Below are positions 1 through 12,053 of a DNA stretch of 64,000 bases, piece by piece (the first letter of the stretch is position 1; the number at the start of each line of letters is the position of its first letter). The notes beneath the pieces were generated by a model that saw only the letters and a list, made by a program, of their open reading frames with translations, searched no databases and was not told where the DNA came from. The stretch lies in NCBI RefSeq assembly GCF_001441165.1, contig NZ_CP013126.1, positions 773,551 through 837,550 on the forward strand. Direction: 5' to 3'. Position numbers and translations under genes: made by a program. The DNA comes from Acidipropionibacterium acidipropionici. GTDB taxonomy: Bacteria; Actinomycetota; Actinomycetes; Propionibacteriales; Propionibacteriaceae.

Positions 1-1865
1 CTGCGGAGTACGAGCGGCGGATCCGTCGCGCCTTCCCCATCCATCCCGAGCTCTTCGACAGGCTCTACGAGGACTGGTCGACCCTGGAACGCTTCCAGCG
101 CACCCGCGGCGTGCTGCGCCTCATGTCCACGGTGATCGCAGAGCTAGTCAAGGAGGGGGACAACTCGCCTATCATCATGCCCGGCACCATCCCGATCGGT
201 GCTGCCGGCGTCACCAGCGAATTCGCCAGCTACGTCGATGCGGCATGGCGAGGAGTCATCTCCGCCGACGTCGACGGCCCGCAGGCCTCCGCCCGCGCCG
301 TCGACGAGGAGAGGCCCGTCTACGGCCGCCGCGCCCTGTCCACGCGTCTCGCCCGGGCGCTCTTCCTCGGCTCCGCCCCGACGGTCGGCGGTGCCCATGC
401 GGGCCTGGACCGCAAGGACCTCACACTCGGCGTCGTCATGCCCGGAGACACCGTGCGCAACGCCGACTCCGCCCTGGCCCTGCTCCAGCAGCGCAGCGCC
501 TACATCTTCCAGGACGGGGAGCGCTACTGGCTCGACGTCACCCCATCACTCAACCGGATCGCGTCCGAGCGCGCCGCCGCGCTGGATGCCGAGGACGTCG
601 AGGCCGCCATCATCGAACGCCTCAGGGCCCGGAGCCGGGACACCGGAGGTCTGTTCAAGGCCGTCATCGTCGCGCCGGACAGCGGCTCCGAGATCCCCGA
701 GGACGACGAGACACGACTGATCGTGCTCGGGCCGGGCATGCCGTTCAGCGCCCGCAGCGCCACCTCCGAGGCCCGAGACGCCGTCATCGAAATGACGAAG
801 AACCGCGGTGCCACGCCGCGCGAGTACCGCAACACTCTGGTCTTCGTGGCACCCGACAGCCGACGGGTCGACGATCTGCGCAGCGCGATGCGCGCACACC
901 TGGCATGGAAGGGCATCCGCGACGACGCCGACCGTCTCGACCTGCGTCAGGAGCAGATGCGGACCGCCGCGCAGCGCTCAGACGATGAGAACAAGCGTGT
1001 CGAGAGCCTCATCTCAGACGCGTGGACGCACGGACTGACTCCCCACCAGACCGGCAACAATCCCGAGATCGAGGTGCGGACCTTCAAGCTCGACACCTCG
1101 GAGCCGAGACTGCACGCCCGAGCCGAGAAGGGATTCACCCGCGACGACGAACTCGTGGCCGGGACCTATGGGCCGCGCGTCATCCTCATGAACCTGGAGC
1201 GATACCTCGCCCGCATCTGGAACAAGGGGTACATCAGCGCCCGCGAACTGTACGAGCTGCACGCCAAATATCTCTATCTGCCGCGGCTGCGCTCGATTCA
1301 GGTGCTGTACCGGGGGCTGGACGACGCCACAGGGAACATCACCGGCGACGTCTTCTGGCTCGCCGACGGCTATGACGAGGCGACCGGAGACTTCGAGGAG
1401 CTCGTCGGGCCGACGTCCGGAGAGATGGTCGTAGCAAGGCCCGAGACGCTGCTGGTGAGTCAGCGTCTCGCCGAGGCGCAGGTCGCACGTCAGAAGGCCG
1501 CCGAGGAGACGAGAACCGGTCATGACGAGCCCGGGCCGTCCCCCCTTCCGGGCGGCGGAACCGGACCCGGTGACGACGGGGACGACGGACGCGACGACGA
1601 CAATCCGCCTACCCCGCAGCTCGACCGCAATGCCGCCTACCACGGAACCTTCGAGATCGACGCCGGAGGAGACGTGGAGGGGAGCCTGGCCGAGATCGCC
1701 GATGCGATCATCACGCAGCTGCGGGATGCCGGGCCGGATTCCCTCGAGGTCACGATGACCGTCGAATCCCATCGGGCGGGCGGCTTCCCCGAGGGCATCG
1801 TGCGGGCGGTCCGGGAGAACGGACGAGGCCTCGGGGCGGCGAAGAACCGGTTCGAGGACGAGTGA
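1..1865 (+). CDS. DUF499-family ATPase, C-terminal part (5' end outside window)
   Basis: The reading frame is open from the left edge, so the protein starts outside the window; about 621 residues are visible. It begins in a segment typical of DUF499 proteins (HPELFDRLYEDWSTLERFQ, then RGVLRLM). It ends with an acidic/proline linker (about residues 510-540) and a C-terminal module of the kind that closes DUF499 proteins (GFPEGIVRAVREN then RFEDE). DUF499 proteins are large P-loop ATPases often encoded next to DUF1156 DNA methyltransferases in anti-phage islands; the Walker A region would lie upstream of the window. The next gene begins 7 bp after the stop, so this is the first visible gene of a defence operon. 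The exact biochemical role is unknown. Confidence 0.8.
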   Translation, partial: AEYERRIRRAFPIHPELFDRLYEDWSTLERFQRTRGVLRLMSTVIAELVKEGDNSPIIMPGTIPIGAAGVTSEFASYVDAAWRGVISADVDGPQASARAVDEERPVYGRRALSTRLARALFLGSAPTVGGAHAGLDRKDLTLGVVMPGDTVRNADSALALLQQRSAYIFQDGERYWLDVTPSLNRIASERAAALDAEDVEAAIIERLRARSRDTGGLFKAVIVAPDSGSEIPEDDETRLIVLGPGMPFSARSATSEARDAVIEMTKNRGATPREYRNTLVFVAPDSRRVDDLRSAMRAHLAWKGIRDDADRLDLRQEQMRTAAQRSDDENKRVESLISDAWTHGLTPHQTGNNPEIEVRTFKLDTSEPRLHARAEKGFTRDDELVAGTYGPRVILMNLERYLARIWNKGYISARELYELHAKYLYLPRLRSIQVLYRGLDDATGNITGDVFWLADGYDEATGDFEELVGPTSGEMVVARPETLLVSQRLAEAQVARQKAAEETRTGHDEPGPSPLPGGGTGPGDDGDDGRDDDNPPTPQLDRNAAYHGTFEIDAGGDVEGSLAEIADAIITQLRDAGPDSLEVTMTVESHRAGGFPEGIVRAVRENGRGLGAAKNRFEDE

Positions 1866-1872
1866 GGACGAC

Positions 1873-3408
1873 ATGGCCGGGGAACTGCACGTCACGAACA
1901 CCGAGGAGGTGCCCCCGGACCCCGCTCTGGCGCGCTATATCGGGCTGCACCACTCGCTACTGAGCGCCGTCGCCGACATCGTCGACAACTCGCTGGACGC
2001 CGATGCCCGCCACATCCTCGTCGAGTTCCAGCTGAAGGGCCGAGTACCCGTCGGGCTGCGCATCATCGATGACGGACGCGGCATGTCCGACGAGACCCTG
2101 CGCAGCGCTGTCGTGATGGGGCGGGTCAGAGCGTATGGGCAGGGCGATCTCGGACATTTCGGCGTGGGTCTCAAGGCAGCGTCTCTGAGCCAGGCCAGGG
2201 AAGTGGTCATCCTCTCCCGTGCGCGGGGATACACGCCGACCGGACGCAGCATCCGCCACTCCGAGAGCGAATCCGGAAACCCGATCGTCAGCACTTTTTC
2301 GCCTCAGGACGTGGGCGCCGGACTGGACGCCGCCCAGCCGGGATTTCCCCTCGACCACGGCACCATCATCGAGTGGAACCAGCCGACACGATTCCCCAGC
2401 GATCCGGACCCAGAGGCCCAGGCCCAATGGTTCGACGACACCACCGCCGACCTCGTTCTGGGGCTGGGAACCAGGTTCCATCGTCGACTGGAGCGCGGCG
2501 ACACGGAGATCCGCATCGGGTCGCGAGAGGTTCGCAGTGGGCGGTCGGGGGTGGCCAAGCGGGTATCGGCCGTCGACCCGTTCGGGTACAGCCGTTCGGG
2601 CCATTCGGGATATCCGAAGGGAATCACCGGAACGATCGACGGCATGCGATTCACGTATGCGGCCCATATCTGGCCCAACGACGAGCGCAGCTCGGCCGGC
2701 TTTCGCCTCACGCGCAAGGGCGACGACCGAGGCCAGGGTCTCTTCATCTACCGGAGCGATCGCCTGCTCCAACTCGGCGGATGGAATCGACTCGTCGCCC
2801 CCTCGGAGGACCTGCGCTTCGCCCGCGTCTCCCTGGACCTGACAGGTGCGGTGGCCGATCACGCGAGGATTAATCCCGAGAAGTCCGGCGTCGAGTTCGA
2901 CGAAACGCTCATCGAGGCCATTCAGAACTCGCGATCCGACGACGGGACGAGCTTCAAAGGCTTCCTGCGGGCCGCGCAGGGAGCGGACAAGGAAAGTCAC
3001 AGAAGGCTCGCCCGGACGGTCGAGGTGCTTCCCGCCGTGGGCATTCCGGTCTCCGCGATGGCGTCGATCCGGGAGGATGCCCGGGTCGCAGACGACGAGT
3101 CACCGATCACGGTGAAGTGGCGTCGTCTCCCGGACGGCGAGTTCTTCCGCGTCGATCTCGAGGAGCGCGACCTCCTCCTCAACGTCCGGTTCCACCGCGC
3201 GCTCACGGGACGCGGATTCGCGAGCGGCACCAGCGCTCCGCTGGTGCGCACCATGATGTACCTCCTGACGGCCGAATTCTTCGACGGTGCATTCATCGGA
3301 CGCTGGGAGCGCAAGAAGCTCGCAGTGCTGCAGGACGCGTTGTGGGAGGCGGCGCTCGCCGAAGAGCAGGCCGTGGCGCGACGAGACGGATCTGGAGGAG
3401 AACTATGA
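1873..3408 (+). CDS. MutL/MORC-like GHKL ATPase of a restriction-type defence operon
   Basis: This 511-residue protein has a clear Bergerat (GHKL) ATP-binding fold. The N-box is VADIVDNSLDADA with the catalytic-site Asn at about residue 39, the second motif is DDGRGM (66-71), and the lid motif is GHFGVGLKAAS (94-104). This arrangement matches the MutL/MORC-like ATPases in prokaryotic restriction operons rather than Hsp90 or histidine kinases; there is no MutL endonuclease motif. The stop overlaps the next start as CTATGA, so expression is translationally coupled to the DUF4420 nuclease. By family knowledge it probably acts as an ATP-driven DNA clamp that gates the nuclease and Z1 partners; that role is inferred. 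Confidence 0.88.
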   Translation: MAGELHVTNTEEVPPDPALARYIGLHHSLLSAVADIVDNSLDADARHILVEFQLKGRVPVGLRIIDDGRGMSDETLRSAVVMGRVRAYGQGDLGHFGVGLKAASLSQAREVVILSRARGYTPTGRSIRHSESESGNPIVSTFSPQDVGAGLDAAQPGFPLDHGTIIEWNQPTRFPSDPDPEAQAQWFDDTTADLVLGLGTRFHRRLERGDTEIRIGSREVRSGRSGVAKRVSAVDPFGYSRSGHSGYPKGITGTIDGMRFTYAAHIWPNDERSSAGFRLTRKGDDRGQGLFIYRSDRLLQLGGWNRLVAPSEDLRFARVSLDLTGAVADHARINPEKSGVEFDETLIEAIQNSRSDDGTSFKGFLRAAQGADKESHRRLARTVEVLPAVGIPVSAMASIREDARVADDESPITVKWRRLPDGEFFRVDLEERDLLLNVRFHRALTGRGFASGTSAPLVRTMMYLLTAEFFDGAFIGRWERKKLAVLQDALWEAALAEEQAVARRDGSGGEL

Positions 3409-4382
3409 GTGAGAGCAGCAGGGGCCAGACGGAACCGCTTTCCCTGGACACCATCAACGACTATCTCAGTGCCGGGTTCCCCGCGACGATGAGGCTCGGC
3501 GTCGCAGGCGACCACACTCTGAGGATCGACCCGTCTCATCGGGAGTTCGTCCTGACCTCTCCGGCCGACGACAGCTTCGAGGACTCCGGCGATATGAAGA
3601 ACCTCACGGTCGAGCTCGACGAGATGGCCGAACCTCCCGCCTACGTCCTCACGATGAAGGTAGGGGACTATCCGGATGCTGCGGCGTCACTGGCGCAGGC
3701 GATCGTCCGCTCTCTCGACTCCGGAACCTCCTACGCCACTGCACTGGACCATGCTCTTGAGGACTTCCGCGATCTGCTCCGCCGCAAGCGCCGGATGTCC
3801 GAGGCCCAGGAGACCGGGCTCCACGGGGAACTCCTGGTGCTCGATCACCTCATCGACACGATCGGCGCCGCGGCCGCTGTGGAGACCTGGGTGGGCCCGG
3901 CCTCCGAGGAGCACGACTTCGTGCTCGCCGGCTATGACATCGAGGTGAAGACCACGACCTCCGAAGCACGCAGACACGTGATTCATGGACCAGGGCAACT
4001 GCTCCCCCGCCCCGACGTCCCACTGTGGCTGGTCTCGATCCAGCTCACCCGGGCCGGCGGCGGGCAGGGCTCGAGCCTCACCGATCTGGTGCGGCGGGTG
4101 CTCGGGCGGCTCGGATCGACCAGGCCCAGGGTGCGTGAGGAGATCGACCGCATCGGATGGCGCGAGGAGGATGCCGACCTGTATTCCGAGCGTCGCACCC
4201 TTCGAAGTGTTCCTCGCAGCTATCGCGTGGACGATGAGTTTCCGGTCGTCACCCCCGCGGTGCTCGCCGCCGGCGTCGCGAATGCGAGCCTCATCAGCGA
4301 TCTGCGGTACACCGTCGATGTCGGTGGCCTTCCCTATGGTGTGCCGGGAGACGAGATGAAGGGACTCACAGAGGCATCATGA
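3405..4382 (+). CDS. PD-(D/E)XK motif nuclease, DUF4420 family
   Basis: I chose the ATG that overlaps the ATPase stop (ATGA), giving 325 residues, the usual DUF4420 length; the frame stays open further upstream without a better start. The restriction-endonuclease core is visible: an acidic residue in HGELLVLDHL (E142), then EEHDF with D171, then YDIEVKTT with E180 and K182, i.e. the E...D...ExK signature of the PD-(D/E)XK fold. It is therefore the likely DNA-cutting subunit of the operon. It is sandwiched between the GHKL ATPase and the Z1 protein with 4-bp overlaps on both sides, a constellation known from MutL/MORC-linked restriction systems. Confidence 0.87.
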   Translation: MSESSRGQTEPLSLDTINDYLSAGFPATMRLGVAGDHTLRIDPSHREFVLTSPADDSFEDSGDMKNLTVELDEMAEPPAYVLTMKVGDYPDAAASLAQAIVRSLDSGTSYATALDHALEDFRDLLRRKRRMSEAQETGLHGELLVLDHLIDTIGAAAAVETWVGPASEEHDFVLAGYDIEVKTTTSEARRHVIHGPGQLLPRPDVPLWLVSIQLTRAGGGQGSSLTDLVRRVLGRLGSTRPRVREEIDRIGWREEDADLYSERRTLRSVPRSYRVDDEFPVVTPAVLAAGVANASLISDLRYTVDVGGLPYGVPGDEMKGLTEAS

Positions 4383-7300
4383 GTGACGCTGAACGCACAG
4401 GGCGGGCCATCTACGACGCGATCCGCAGTCTTCCCAACAATCGGCCGAAGCCGTTGCTGCGCGCAGTTGCACGAGAGCTCGAGGACGACGACCTCCCCGA
4501 TATCGATGAGAACGAACTGCTCAGCCTCGTCCTCCGCGGCGATGCCAACGACCCCATCCAGCGTCAGTTCCACATCAAGCTGACGTCGTGGGACGGCACG
4601 GCGTCTCTGGACGACCGCAGTGCCGCCCACTCGACCACGGCCGGCACGGCGGCCCGCCGCCAGGCGGTGCTCGACGAGCTCCAGCTGAGCGCAGCCGGAC
4701 AGGATCGCGTCAATGGGTTGTTCCCGGTGACCGATACTGCGCCGACGGTCATCGCTAAAGAATGGGAGCCCTGGTACTTCTCGGCGACTCATCGGGACGA
4801 CTACTGGAACCGCTATCGAGACCTGCTCGACAGGAAGAACTTCGACCCCAATGGCATCGCGGAGATCGATCGCGCCACCGATGAGGTGATTCGCAGGCTG
4901 TCGAACCCTTCGAGGCATGAGGCGTACCAATCCAAAGGGCTCGTCGTCGGCTATGTGCAGAGCGGCAAGACGGCCAACTTCACAGGTCTCATGGCGAAGG
5001 CCATCGATGCGGGATACAAGTTCATCATCGTCCTCACCGGAACCGTCGAGCTCCTGAGGGCTCAGACGCAGAAGCGCCTCGACATGGAGCTCGTCGGGCG
5101 GGAGAACATCCTCCGCGGACATTTCGACGACTACGTCAAGGCCGAGAAGGCGTGGAAGGACGCGCCCGAGGTTCAGAAGGCGGATCTGAAGCAGAAGATG
5201 CTGGCGATCGCCGGCGACGACGATTACGCGTCCACCGGCGATGACGACTGGTTCAACGACAGATTCGTCTCGGCCGAGCCGGAAACCGACGACGACATCC
5301 CGCGGATCACGCGCCTTACCGGTATCCACAGCGACTTCACGAGACTGCGAGGCGGCATCGATGCGCTCGATTTCAAGCTGGATGTGCCCGCCCGAAGCAA
5401 GCCCCTTTGGGAGGACGCGAACCTCAGGCACGTCGGCGTCCGGCTTGCGGTCGTCAAGAAGGAGACGCATGCGCTCGAGAAATTAAAGAAGGATCTCCAA
5501 AGCATCCGCACCCGTCTGGAGGACATCCCTGCCCTCATCATCGATGATGAGGCCGATCAGGCGTCCATCAACACCAAGAAGCCGAAGCCGAGGCGGAAGT
5601 CAGAGCGGACCACAATCAACGGACACATCGCGGACCTGCTGAGCTATATGCCCCGCTGCCAGTACGTCGCATATACGGCGACGCCATTCGCGAATGTCTT
5701 CGTGAGCCCCGACGATCCCGCCGACGTCTTCCCCAAGGACTTCATCATCTCGCTCAGCTCGTCCCCGGGGTATCTCGGCGCCGCGCAGCTGCACGACCTG
5801 GATCCGGTCGACGACGAGACCGACCCCGCGCAGTCGAACCGTGCCGCCTTCCACCGGCCGGTTCCCATGGACCGGGACGAGCCCGAACGCACGGAGGCGG
5901 CATATGCGGAGGCGCTCGACTCCTTCGTGCTGTCCGGTGCCACCAAGCTCTTCCGCAAGGCGCACGGCGGTGAGCAACAGGGCGGAAAATTCCGACACCA
6001 CACCATGCTCGTACACGAGACGCCTAGCCAATTGGGCCATGCAACGTCGATGGACCACATCGAACAGCTGTGGAAGCACAATGGCTACGGCTATCCCGAC
6101 GCTCTTGACCGCCTCGAGGAGCTGTGGACCAAGGATCATCGACGGGTCTCGGCCGTTCGGGCGCCTGAGGGATTCGCGTCTCCGAAGAGCTTCGCAGAAA
6201 TCGAGCCTTACATCGGCCAGGCCCTGGATCTCATCGAGGACGGGGCTTCCCCCGCGGTCATGGTCAACGGATCGAAGGAGTCCGACTACATGGCCGACGC
6301 GATCGCCTTCGAGAAGCATCCCGTCTGGAAGATCCTGATCGGAGGCACCAAGCTCAGCCGAGGATTCACCGTGGAAGGGCTGACCGTCTCCGTGTTCACG
6401 AGGGTGGCGACGGCTGCGGACACCACCATGCAGATGGGACGCTGGTTCGGCTACCGACCGGGCTACTCGGACCTGGTCCGGATCTACCTCGGCTGCGAGA
6501 TCCGCAAGCGAGGGGTCAAGAGCGAGATCGATCTGTATGACACCTTCACCTCGGCCGCCCAGGACGAGGAGGACTTCCGACGGGAGCTCAGCCGTTTCGC
6601 GACACTGGACGACGACGGCAAGCCCGCTGCCCGACCCATCGACGTCCCGCCACTTGTCGGCCAGCGCATGCCTTGGCTCAAGCCGACGGCGACCAACAAG
6701 ATGTACAACAGTCGGATCATCAGCAAGGGAATCGGCGGACAGCTGCAGGACTTCTCGCTGCAGGCAACGCGAGGGGATGGTTCGAACAATCGTCGGAACT
6801 TCGATTGCGCCATGCGGATCTTGGAGATGCTCGAGGGATTCTCCGATGGCAGCGGGGCGACCGTGTTCCGGGATGCAGGCAGCGTCGCAGGTGGCGCCGT
6901 GCGTCCTGGGGCTTCATTCGCCGCTCGTTACGGCGTCGTGCCCGCGTCCCTCGTTGCTGATCTCTTCGAGACGATCAGATGGGTCGACGACGAGACGTAC
7001 CGACCGGAGCGGAACTTCCTGGCCCGCAGCATCAGGAGCGGAAAGATCCGGGAATTCGCCGTCCTCGTTCCGTGGTTGGCCGAATCGGCCTCGGTCCTGG
7101 AGCGTTGTGTCGACGCGGCGCCAGACACCCCGCTCCGGCTGATCACGCGCAACCGACGACAGGATCGCGCCGGTTTCTCCGGAAGCTCGAAGCGGCAGCG
7201 CGCGGCCATTGAGACCATTGCTCAGTTCCCGGAGGCCGAGGACGGCGGGGAGTTGGCGCGAGGCCTGCGGGCCCCGAAGCGAGGCGCGCTCCTGCTCACC

Positions 7301-7507
7301 TTCGCACGGGATCCGGAGACTCGGAATGACGTCGCACCCTTCGCGAACCCCGATGCGTTGGTCAGCGCCCAGGATGTGGCGACGCACATCTCGATGAGCT
7401 TCCCGTACGAGTCAGCCGGCAGAGGGATTATTCAGCGCGAGGTCGTCAAGGACAATCTGGATGTCGCGTTCGTCGAGAGAGCAGAAGCCCAGCACCGGCG
7501 CGACTGA
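4379..7507 (+). CDS. Z1-domain P-loop ATPase/helicase-like protein
   Basis: This 1042-residue protein carries Walker A GYVQSGKT (191-198), a DEAD-like Walker B in ALIIDDEADQAS (about 383-394), motif III-like YTATPFANVF (about 432-441) and the Z1 hallmark GGTKLSRGFTVEGL followed by MQMGRWFGYR (about 655-700). Z1 proteins are superfamily II-like ATPases found almost only in defence operons with GHKL ATPases and DUF4420 nucleases, including the MZA (MutL-Z1-DUF4420-AIPR) type. The start overlaps the DUF4420 stop (ATGA). The gene looks intact. Its likely job is DNA translocation or remodelling for the nuclease subunit; that is inference. Confidence 0.9.
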   Translation: MSDAERTGRAIYDAIRSLPNNRPKPLLRAVARELEDDDLPDIDENELLSLVLRGDANDPIQRQFHIKLTSWDGTASLDDRSAAHSTTAGTAARRQAVLDELQLSAAGQDRVNGLFPVTDTAPTVIAKEWEPWYFSATHRDDYWNRYRDLLDRKNFDPNGIAEIDRATDEVIRRLSNPSRHEAYQSKGLVVGYVQSGKTANFTGLMAKAIDAGYKFIIVLTGTVELLRAQTQKRLDMELVGRENILRGHFDDYVKAEKAWKDAPEVQKADLKQKMLAIAGDDDYASTGDDDWFNDRFVSAEPETDDDIPRITRLTGIHSDFTRLRGGIDALDFKLDVPARSKPLWEDANLRHVGVRLAVVKKETHALEKLKKDLQSIRTRLEDIPALIIDDEADQASINTKKPKPRRKSERTTINGHIADLLSYMPRCQYVAYTATPFANVFVSPDDPADVFPKDFIISLSSSPGYLGAAQLHDLDPVDDETDPAQSNRAAFHRPVPMDRDEPERTEAAYAEALDSFVLSGATKLFRKAHGGEQQGGKFRHHTMLVHETPSQLGHATSMDHIEQLWKHNGYGYPDALDRLEELWTKDHRRVSAVRAPEGFASPKSFAEIEPYIGQALDLIEDGASPAVMVNGSKESDYMADAIAFEKHPVWKILIGGTKLSRGFTVEGLTVSVFTRVATAADTTMQMGRWFGYRPGYSDLVRIYLGCEIRKRGVKSEIDLYDTFTSAAQDEEDFRRELSRFATLDDDGKPAARPIDVPPLVGQRMPWLKPTATNKMYNSRIISKGIGGQLQDFSLQATRGDGSNNRRNFDCAMRILEMLEGFSDGSGATVFRDAGSVAGGAVRPGASFAARYGVVPASLVADLFETIRWVDDETYRPERNFLARSIRSGKIREFAVLVPWLAESASVLERCVDAAPDTPLRLITRNRRQDRAGFSGSSKRQRAAIETIAQFPEAEDGGELARGLRAPKRGALLLTFARDPETRNDVAPFANPDALVSAQDVATHISMSFPYESAGRGIIQREVVKDNLDVAFVERAEAQHRRD

Positions 7508-7564
7508 TCCGGGTGCAAGTCCGCGCATCCTCCCCCGTGCGAGGATGGCAGCGGAGGTTGGAGG

Positions 7565-8014
7565 ATGGCCGGAGTTCAGGATCGTCGTGAGCCGGCTTCA
7601 TGGGCGGCCAATGACGGAGTCGCCAAGTCCATGCGCTCGAACCGACGGCGTGACACGAAGCCGGAGCTCGCCGTCCGACGTATGCTGCACGCGCGGGGGC
7701 TCCGGTACCGCGTGGACTATGCCCCCGGACCGGACAAGCGCCGGCGCGCCGACATCGTCTTCACCCGCCAGAAGGTCGCCGTCTTCATCGACGGCTGCTT
7801 CTGGCACGGCTGTCCCGAGCACGCCACCATCCCGAAGGCCCACGCGGACTACTGGGTCCGCAAGCTCGCGAGGAACCGTGAGCGCGATGTCGAGACCACT
7901 GCGGAGCTTGAGGCAGAGGGGTGGACGGTGCTCCGGTTCTGGGAGCACGAGGATCCGAAGACGGTGGCGAACGCAATCGCCGTCCGAATCCATGCGTGCG
8001 ATCACTCTGCGTGA
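7565..8014 (+). CDS. vsr: Very-short-patch-repair (Vsr)-like endonuclease
   Basis: This 149-residue protein, about the full Vsr length, follows a strong GGAGGTTGGAGG ribosome site. Family landmarks are the N-terminal RRRDTKPELAVRRMLHARG helix, the catalytic ADIVF with Asp63, VFIDGCFWHGC (metal/active-site Asp76, Trp80, His81) and the C-terminal GWTVLRFWEHE strand. Classical Vsr nicks next to T:G mismatches made by deamination of 5-methylcytosine, but Vsr-fold nucleases are also restriction effectors in Z1/MORC operons. It lies 57 bp after the Z1 gene on the same strand and probably belongs to that operon. Which of the two roles applies cannot be read from the sequence. Confidence 0.9.
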   Translation: MAGVQDRREPASWAANDGVAKSMRSNRRRDTKPELAVRRMLHARGLRYRVDYAPGPDKRRRADIVFTRQKVAVFIDGCFWHGCPEHATIPKAHADYWVRKLARNRERDVETTAELEAEGWTVLRFWEHEDPKTVANAIAVRIHACDHSA

Positions 8015-8209: not shown

Positions 8210-10679
8210 CTATCCATGCAGGGACGTATCCACCTGATCGAGGAACCAATCCAGCGTCTCTTGCACGATGTCGAATGCGTCCGGATCAGCCAGAACTGAT
8301 ACCGGGAATCCCGGACGGGGCCTGTCCGGCATGTCGATGCCGAAGGCCATGTTCAACCTGTCTCGAAGCTCGGCCCTAAGAGCGTCATCGGTGAATGGTT
8401 CGCGAGAGGCCAGGTGCTGGAACACCACCTCGACCTTCCCGGTCGGGTACAGCGCGAACGGCCAGATCGTGGCTCCCTCGATGTCGCGGACGAAGAACGC
8501 CGTCACGAGGCTCGCCGCACCGTAGGTGATCCGCCCGCGTTCCGTCCAATGAGCCATCAGTCGGTTGACAGCAACCACGGTCTCCGAGATCTGATACTGG
8601 GCAAGCTGCTCGTCGAACTTCTCCCCGGCCGTCTCAGGCACAAGGATCTCTTCCACCCGGGCAAGGTCCTCAGCCGAGAGCGCCCGCTCGGGTGATGCAT
8701 GGCCCTCGGCGTCGACCTCCACTCCTTCATCCTCAAGGGCCTGCCTGGAATCTGCTGCTACCACACGGCCATCTCCGCCGAGGACGCGATGTGCGCGGTC
8801 CATCTTCACCGTGGCCAGGTGCTCGCGCAAGAGATCCGGCCTGATCCCGGCCACCGATGCCACGACGTCATAGGTAGTCCACCTCCCAGTTGGGATCTCT
8901 GCCAGCAGACGGGCCACAGCCGCCCACGTCCGGGGATTGTCCAATGAGGAGTTCTCGACGAAGACCTCGTTGGGCCCCGGCCAGATGCTTATGATCTGAT
9001 CCGCCAGCAGATCGGATCTCCTGTTGATGCTGCCAATACCCCACGTGCTGCTTTCCGAGATCTGATGGTTCATCAGCAGCCCACTGTCACGCAGCCTCTC
9101 GCGCTTCACCGGGTAGGGGCTGTTGCTCATCTCGCTGTTGTACCCCGTGAGGGTGAGGTTGCCGATCGTGTGCATGGCGAGATCATGTGCAGCGTTGACG
9201 TCGGCGCCCGCGCCCAGCTCTTCCTCCAGCGCTCGCCGCCACTCCCTCGACATCGTCTGCGGCATCACGTGTTCGATAGACAGCGTGGCGAACCGCACCG
9301 GCTCCTTGCTTCCCAGGCTCTCCTCCAGCCAGGCCAGAATGAGCTTCTTCTGCGGGGCCTTCCCCTGAAGATAGAAGGGAATGGTCCGCACAGCTTCGCG
9401 AATCTGAGCGTTTGTGGCGAAGTAGCGCCGTCCACGGGATAGATATACGCGCAAACTTTCTTCGACATCATCGGCACTCTCGATCGCGGAGACCGCCTGG
9501 ATCAGCGTCCTGCTGAGGTTGGCGGTCGCCTTCCCGACCACGATCCTGCGTACGAAGTAGCCCTCCAGAACCCTGAGCGCGTCAATAACGTCCTGCGTCT
9601 CGAGCGTCTTCTCCGCACGACGGCCTCAGAAGCTCAAGAATGATAGGGTAAGCCGTCCTCGTCCCCCAGTCGCGCATCCGCTTGAGACGCCTTCTCAGCT
9701 CGGGATCCGGATCCCTCTCAGGCTTCAGAATTGTCTCCAACAATGCTCCGAGACCAGCAATACGGCGGACCTCCGCCTCGACCTGGTCGACGGAAGTCAG
9801 CCTCTCCAACCTCCTCTGCTGGCCCTCGTAGGTCTCGGACTGCCTGGCCTTCTCATCCGTGCGCACCAGATCCAGCCAGAACAAGAGCTCCAGCTGGTCC
9901 GGGCTGAGGTGCCTCTCAAGCGGAAGCCACACAGCCTCATACACGGCCCGGCTACGATCTCCGAGCCGCATGAACAGGTAGTTCTTCAACAGGTCTGCCT
10001 GGGTGAGCTTGAGCCCAGTGTTGTTGAGCGACTCGAAGATCCGGTAGACGTTGTCATTCCCACTTGCAGTTACGGAAACCAGCGCCAGACCGTTGAGGAC
10101 CGTGGTCTCAATATCCTTGACACAAACGGACGCGCCGACGTCGTCGGACGCGTCATCGTCCGGGGCCTCGATTTCAGCCAATTTGCCACGCAGACGTCTG
10201 TACGCGGCCCCGATTCCATCCTCACCACCGGCGCCCGGAGAACGGTTGATCACCGCAAGGTAGGAGTCCCGGTCGGCGCGGGTCGGCAGGAGCTTCGGCT
10301 GGCCCTCCTGCCACTGGTTGATGAGGTACTGATAGCCGATTCGCTCTACGGCTGACGGGTCCTGCCTGGTGTCGAGAAGGTGGTCGCGAATCGCAGCAAG
10401 GAGGAGCGTGAGCGTCGTCAGGCGCTGCTGCCCGTCCACCACCAGATACTTCATGAGGCCGACCGGTCCGAAATCCGGGGTCGCGGCAAGCACCAAGGAG
10501 CCGATGAAGTGGGTCACGCGTGAGTCCGACATTCGGCTCTCCGCCGTCTCGACGATGTCGTCCCACAATTGGTCGATCTGCTTGCCAGTCCACGAGTAGA
10601 CACGCTGATACAACGGCACCCGGTACTGCTTCGCTCCCTCGAGGATCTCCCTCAGATTGGTCTCCTGCGCAGCTACCAC
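8210..10679 (-). pseudogene. GmrSD-like DUF262/DUF1524 nuclease gene, frameshifted
   Basis: Two adjacent minus-strand frames form one broken gene. The first (GTG at 10679, site GGAGG) encodes a DUF262 domain: VPLYQRVYSWTGKQIDQLW and VVDGQQRLTTLTLL (ParB-like DGQQR). The second, ending at 8210, carries the DUF1524 HNH-type nuclease: LSIEHVMPQ, then MHTIGNLTLTGYNSEMSN. The frames join around 9621-9624, where one extra base in GGCC shifts the reading; removing it gives an uninterrupted junction (ILELLRR then AEKTLETQDVIDALRVLEG). GmrSD-type proteins are type IV restriction enzymes against modified phage DNA. It is convergent with the Vsr gene. A sequencing error is possible; otherwise the protein is split and probably inactive. 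Confidence 0.82.
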
Positions 10680-10902: not shown

Positions 10903-12053
10903 CTAAGAAGTTCATAAGTATGTAGACTTTCGGGGTTTGTTCTGGGAGAATGGAGCATGCGCGAGGATGACGGGCGGAAGCTGGACCACAAGACCCTGGA
11001 GGCTCTGCGGGTGAGGGCTGTGGGCCAGGTCGAGAAGGGGGCCCGGGTCGAGGACGTCGCGGCGGGGCTGGGGCTGAACCGTTCGAGTGTGTTCAAGTGG
11101 GTGGCGGCATACCATGCGGGCGGGAAGAAGGCCCTGAGGGCACGTCCGGTGCCGGGCCGGCCTCCGAAACTGTCGGGTGTCCAGACCGAGGAGATCTACC
11201 AGATCGTCGCGGGGACGAACCCGGACCAGCATCAACTGGACTTCGGGTTGTGGACCCGTGACCTGGTCCGCCAGATCATCGCCACACGGTTCGGTGTTGA
11301 ACTGTCGCTTCCGTCGGTGGGCCGCCTGCTCCACAAGCTGGGCATGTCCCCGCAACGGCCCCTGCACCGGGCCTGGCAGTCCGACCCGCAGGCGGTGGCC
11401 GAATGGCGCGAGCAGGTGTATCCGCCGATCGCCGCCGAGGCGAAGAAGAAGGGGGCGGTCATCTTCTTCGGTGACGAGGCCTCGGTCCGCTCCGACTACC
11501 ACTCCGGCACCACCTGGGGGGTGATCGGACGCACCCCGGTCGTCAAGACCACCGGGGCCCGGTTCAGTGTGAATATGATCTCGGCGGTCTCGGCCCAGGG
11601 CAAGCTGCGGTTCTCCATCGTGGACGGCACCATGAATGCCACCCGGTTCCTGGACTTCTGCCGTCGGCTGCTGCGCGACGAGGGCAGACCGGTGGTGCTG
11701 ATCGTCGACGGACATGCCGCCCACAAGGCCAAGAAGGTCCGCAAGTGGGTGGACTCGACCGAGGGCCGGTTCACCCTGGTGCACCTGCCGGCCTACTCCC
11801 CGTTCCTCAACCCCGACGAATGGGTATGGAAAAACGTCAAGGCCGACCGGGTCGGCCGCCATGCCATCACCGGGCCCGACCAGTTCAAGGCCCTGGCGGT
11901 CGCCGGCCTGCGACGTCTCCAGCGCCTGCCACAGATCGTGAGGGGCTTCTTCGCCGACCCGGACCTCGCCTACATCAATGCCGCGGCCTGACCGGGTCCG
12001 GAGTACCGCCCGATCCGGATTCCCAAAAGTCTACTTACTAACGCTCGCCTTAG
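10903..12053 (+). mobile_element. IS630-family insertion sequence
   Basis: The element is about 1151 bp and contains one transposase gene. Its ends are long imperfect inverted repeats: both read CTAAG at the tip, and further in share GTA, TAGACTTT and GGG at matching spacing (left 10903-10942, right 12014-12053). A TA dinucleotide flanks each side (10901-10902 and 12054-12055), the target duplication expected for IS630/Tc1-mariner elements. The boundaries are confirmed independently, because removing the element plus one TA restores the DUF4411 reading frame across the junction. A shorter reading of the ends at 10921/12035, also next to TA, was considered but does not restore the gene. Confidence 0.88.
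10957..11991 (+). CDS. IS630-family transposase
   Basis: This 344-residue protein has an N-terminal helix-turn-helix (VEDVAAGLGLNRSSVFKWV, about residues 28-46) and a second winged-helix region with GRPPKLS. The DDE catalytic core shows FFGDEASVR (first Asp), VLIVDGHAAHKAKKV (second Asp) and SPFLNPDEWVWKNVK (last acidic residue in the NP-E-W context typical of IS630). Length and motifs are complete, so the enzyme may still be active. It lies alone between the terminal repeats with no passenger gene. Confidence 0.93.
   Translation: MREDDGRKLDHKTLEALRVRAVGQVEKGARVEDVAAGLGLNRSSVFKWVAAYHAGGKKALRARPVPGRPPKLSGVQTEEIYQIVAGTNPDQHQLDFGLWTRDLVRQIIATRFGVELSLPSVGRLLHKLGMSPQRPLHRAWQSDPQAVAEWREQVYPPIAAEAKKKGAVIFFGDEASVRSDYHSGTTWGVIGRTPVVKTTGARFSVNMISAVSAQGKLRFSIVDGTMNATRFLDFCRRLLRDEGRPVVLIVDGHAAHKAKKVRKWVDSTEGRFTLVHLPAYSPFLNPDEWVWKNVKADRVGRHAITGPDQFKALAVAGLRRLQRLPQIVRGFFADPDLAYINAAA

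Follow-up and report, generated by a model that had tools for sequence, protein, structure and literature searches.

A putative hybrid defence operon in Acidipropionibacterium acidipropionici that combines HmaBC with a MORC-type restriction module

Introduction

The Hma systems and the DUF499-centred BREX-related (BR) systems are described, in the accessible text of PMC8565338 and PMC12839542, as combining a DUF1156 N6-methyltransferase with a (HEPN-)DUF499 AAA+ ATPase. A third type of MORC operon, according to the available part of PMC2292703, joins an SF2 helicase with the motif DThhQXuRhFG to a restriction-fold nuclease, often together with cytosine methylases and Vsr. Here we describe an operon with proteins of both kinds, at the left edge of a 64,000-nucleotide stretch of Acidipropionibacterium acidipropionici (contig NZ_CP013126.1, positions 773,551 to 837,550). 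This whole stretch is hereafter the window, and negative positions lie to its left. Judged from its sequence, the operon would be a hybrid with a swapped effector, pairing HmaB and HmaC, a methylase and an ATPase from one known antiviral family, with the cutting machinery of another.

Composite loci in six genera

HmaBC stands next to a trio of MORC-type ATPase, DUF4420 nuclease and PF10593 protein at six loci from six genera. All six composites have one core gene order, with overlapping or abutting genes. An earlier note on the window had proposed a composite operon of DUF499, GHKL, DUF4420, Z1 (here PF10593) and Vsr genes, which the domain matches confirm (Table 1); these loci also bear out the conservation of the DUF499 gene beside the trio. 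A core order common to six genera points to defence systems of this sort being assembled from interchangeable halves. Mere co-location in a defence island was rejected, because all six loci keep the single order, have genes that overlap or abut, and lack HmaA.

For comparison we took the HmaB locus of each of the sample's 36 other genomes, in fetched stretches of up to 20 kb. In 33 of them, HmaA is encoded no more than about 5 kb from HmaB and in the same orientation, and its identity is backed by PADLOC scores of 1302-1496 bits in three examples. The HmaA profile was built from 18 of the 33, which have a gene of 1000-1300 aa at most 2.5 kb upstream of HmaB, and then found the other 15; these include a fragment at a contig edge (G712) and two weak matches of about 180 bits (G562 and G505). 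Among the three genomes outside the 33, two stop too early to judge (G762 and G773) and one is a candidate composite (G708). HmaA is also present at locus L009, from a separate collection. No trio was seen in the fetched stretches of the 36 genomes.

In the composites, HmaA was found in none of the six within the 40-56 kb examined, which for G608 reach only 9.8 kb upstream, to the contig start. A single-protein HmaA query gave no match above 70 bits in five of the six composite genomes, and G492 has an unlinked HmaA relative (588 bits). The best match anywhere in the genome of the window reached 42 bits over 142 residues. HmaA is replaced in the composites.

One could instead see a decayed Hma system, which lost HmaA and left HmaBC as a remnant beside a working MORC restriction system. 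The HEPN motif RX4H of the window HmaC, with leucine in place of arginine, is consistent with such decay, as is the interruption of HmaB in two of the six composites (G554 and G492; L013 and L018), where HmaC and the trio are still open. However, all six HmaC frames are open over their full length and encode Walker A and B motifs, RX4H is kept in five, and the HmaB motifs were found wherever the frame used spans them, in composites that come from six genera. We therefore consider decay improbable and favour the hybrid.

The HmaC tree covers 41 of the 42 loci with an HmaC match, leaving out one contig-end fragment shorter than 900 aa; the 14-row tree is a subset chosen by hand. Region tables hold only tblastn pieces of at least 45 bits.

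The restriction module

The GHKL protein had been called MutL/MORC-like in the earlier note, and only the MORC part of this label stands. Its profile found MORC2 as the best solved relative (2e-16), ahead of MutL (4.5e-8). Furthermore, the published MORC signature, the S5 motif GhXhhpXXRhl (PMC2292703, available text), is present as GLFIYRSDRLL at residue 289; the residue classes of this pattern are our own interpretation of that text. The signature is found in 8/8 rows of alignment A2, the window included, and in 13 of the 19 rows of the more diverse alignment A4.

The restriction-fold E-D-ExK residues of the DUF4420 nuclease (GEL, D, E[VI]K) are conserved in all 11 rows, and the helicase motif of third-type MORC operons takes the form DTTMQMGRWFG in the PF10593 protein. 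Vsr aligns with the solved Vsr 1cw0 (3e-14) and keeps FxDGCxWH in 7/7 rows.

The trio also occurs in other company. G487 carries it without HmaBC, with a C5-methylase and Vsr close by, on plasmid p2MP a different protein occupies the HmaC position, and some trios lie in viral contigs (L105 and L108) with C5-methylase and Vsr.

Gene content and neighbourhood

The earlier note had suspected a methyltransferase left of the window, and the DUF1156 methyltransferase HmaB is indeed encoded there (Table 1).

Table 1. Features of the operon and its surroundings, in window coordinates.
Feature	Position	Strand	Evidence
RelE-like frame (281 aa), then UvrD-type frame (413 aa)	-19045 to -16741 (L007:16955-19259)	-	RelE-like frame: no Pfam match
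Second, divergent defence operon: 1572-aa GHKL + SF2 helicase, DrmA, DrmB	-16741 to -6757 (L003:259-10243)	-	
C5-methylase 1	-6632 to -5538, left of window	+	
C5-methylase 2	-5533 to about -4439, left of window	-	
HmaB, DUF1156 N6-adenine methyltransferase	about -4352 to -1515, left of window	+	PF06634 3e-25; PADLOC HmaB 1075 bits; DPPY and motif I
HmaC, Swt1-like HEPN + DUF499 AAA+ ATPase, 1129 aa	-1524 (start outside window) to 1865	+	PADLOC 823 bits; PF18731, PF04465; Walker A/B
MORC-type GHKL+S5 ATPase, 511 aa	1873..3408	+	PF13589 6e-21
DUF4420 PD-(D/E)XK nuclease, 325 aa	3405..4382	+	PF14390 2e-39
PF10593 protein	4379..7507	+	PF10593 3e-46; Walker A GYVQSGKT, DDEAD, DTTMQMGRWFG
Vsr mismatch endonuclease, 149 aa	7565..8014	+	TIGR00632 126 bits (cut-off 97.85)
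GmrSD_N and GmrSD_C, two separate frames	8210-10679	-	
DDE_3-family transposase	10957-11991		

The second defence operon resembles DISARM with some partners exchanged. Its DrmA scores 798 bits with NCBIfam DrmAS, under the cut-off of 950, and its DrmB 433 bits, over the cut-off of 240. The best PADLOC model for the GHKL-helicase is TmtA, presumably of Tiamat. Together with a C5-methylase, these three proteins are also found in G439 and G405, with identities of 54-62%. Beside this operon, the RelE-like and UvrD-type frames appear to be two pieces of a single, split RelE-UvrD helicase gene; homologues of both pieces are adjacent in G462, and a RelE-GajB-like helicase fusion is reported for ARMADA type II in the accessible text of PMC12458937.

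The two C5-methylases between the operons belong to one family (52% identical) and stand tail to tail, an arrangement that would fit each operon having arrived with one of them. C5-methylase 1 may be a member of the divergent DrmA/DrmB operon instead. That this operon, with its split helicase, forms one larger system with ours and shares the C5-methylases is very unlikely. It does stand head to head against C5-methylase 1, and one C5-methylase family serves both operon kinds (51-66% identity to methylase 1). However, a search of the five other composite genomes for the GHKL-helicase gave nothing at 1e-20, and on this ground we rejected a common unit. In G405 and G439 the GHKL-helicase accompanies DrmA, DrmB and C5-methylase, and the fetched 40 kb contain neither HmaBC nor the trio.

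To the right of the operon, the GmrSD_N and GmrSD_C frames may represent a disrupted type IV restriction gene, and the transposase lies beyond them.

Comparison with known systems

The earlier note had allowed for a full match to a catalogued system, and none was found. The operon has the methylase and ATPase of Hma and BR, and the relative order of HmaB and HmaC matches that of the canonical loci we fetched. It differs in that the SNF2 helicase(-nuclease) HmaA is not in the operon, and because HmaA is missing it is not Hma by definition. The PglZ/iSTAND families of BR type 3 did not appear in Pfam, PADLOC or NCBIfam scans of the operon proteins, which included no dedicated search for them. 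Distant homologues of MzaB, MzaC and MzaD are encoded; however, they score 82, 257 and 69 bits against NCBIfam/PADLOC cut-offs of 850, 1500 and 420, and because of these scores the operon is not MZA by definition, from which HmaBC further sets it apart. AIPR, which we take to be an MZA component, was not among the scanned operon proteins or right-hand neighbours, the search not being genome-wide. CglI/NgoAVII restriction differs by its PLD-type nuclease, and neither MORC nor HmaBC is named in the accessible text of PMC4267653.

The reading as an under-described combination is supported. We did not find the combination in the accessible text of PMC12839542, PMC3710099, PMC7641849, PMC8011034 or PMC8565338, open-licence literature taken without supplementary tables, so that an earlier mention is possible.

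Among the closest known systems is also the third type of MORC operon, with which ours shares the MORC GHKL+S5 ATPase, SF2 helicase, restriction-fold nuclease, cytosine methylase and Vsr. The available part of PMC2292703 does not name the DUF499 ATPase or the DUF1156 methylase, and its methylases are mostly cytosine-specific. Going by that description, the right half of the operon is therefore of a kind known since 2008. The operon has the proteins that define the third type, HmaBC being extra.
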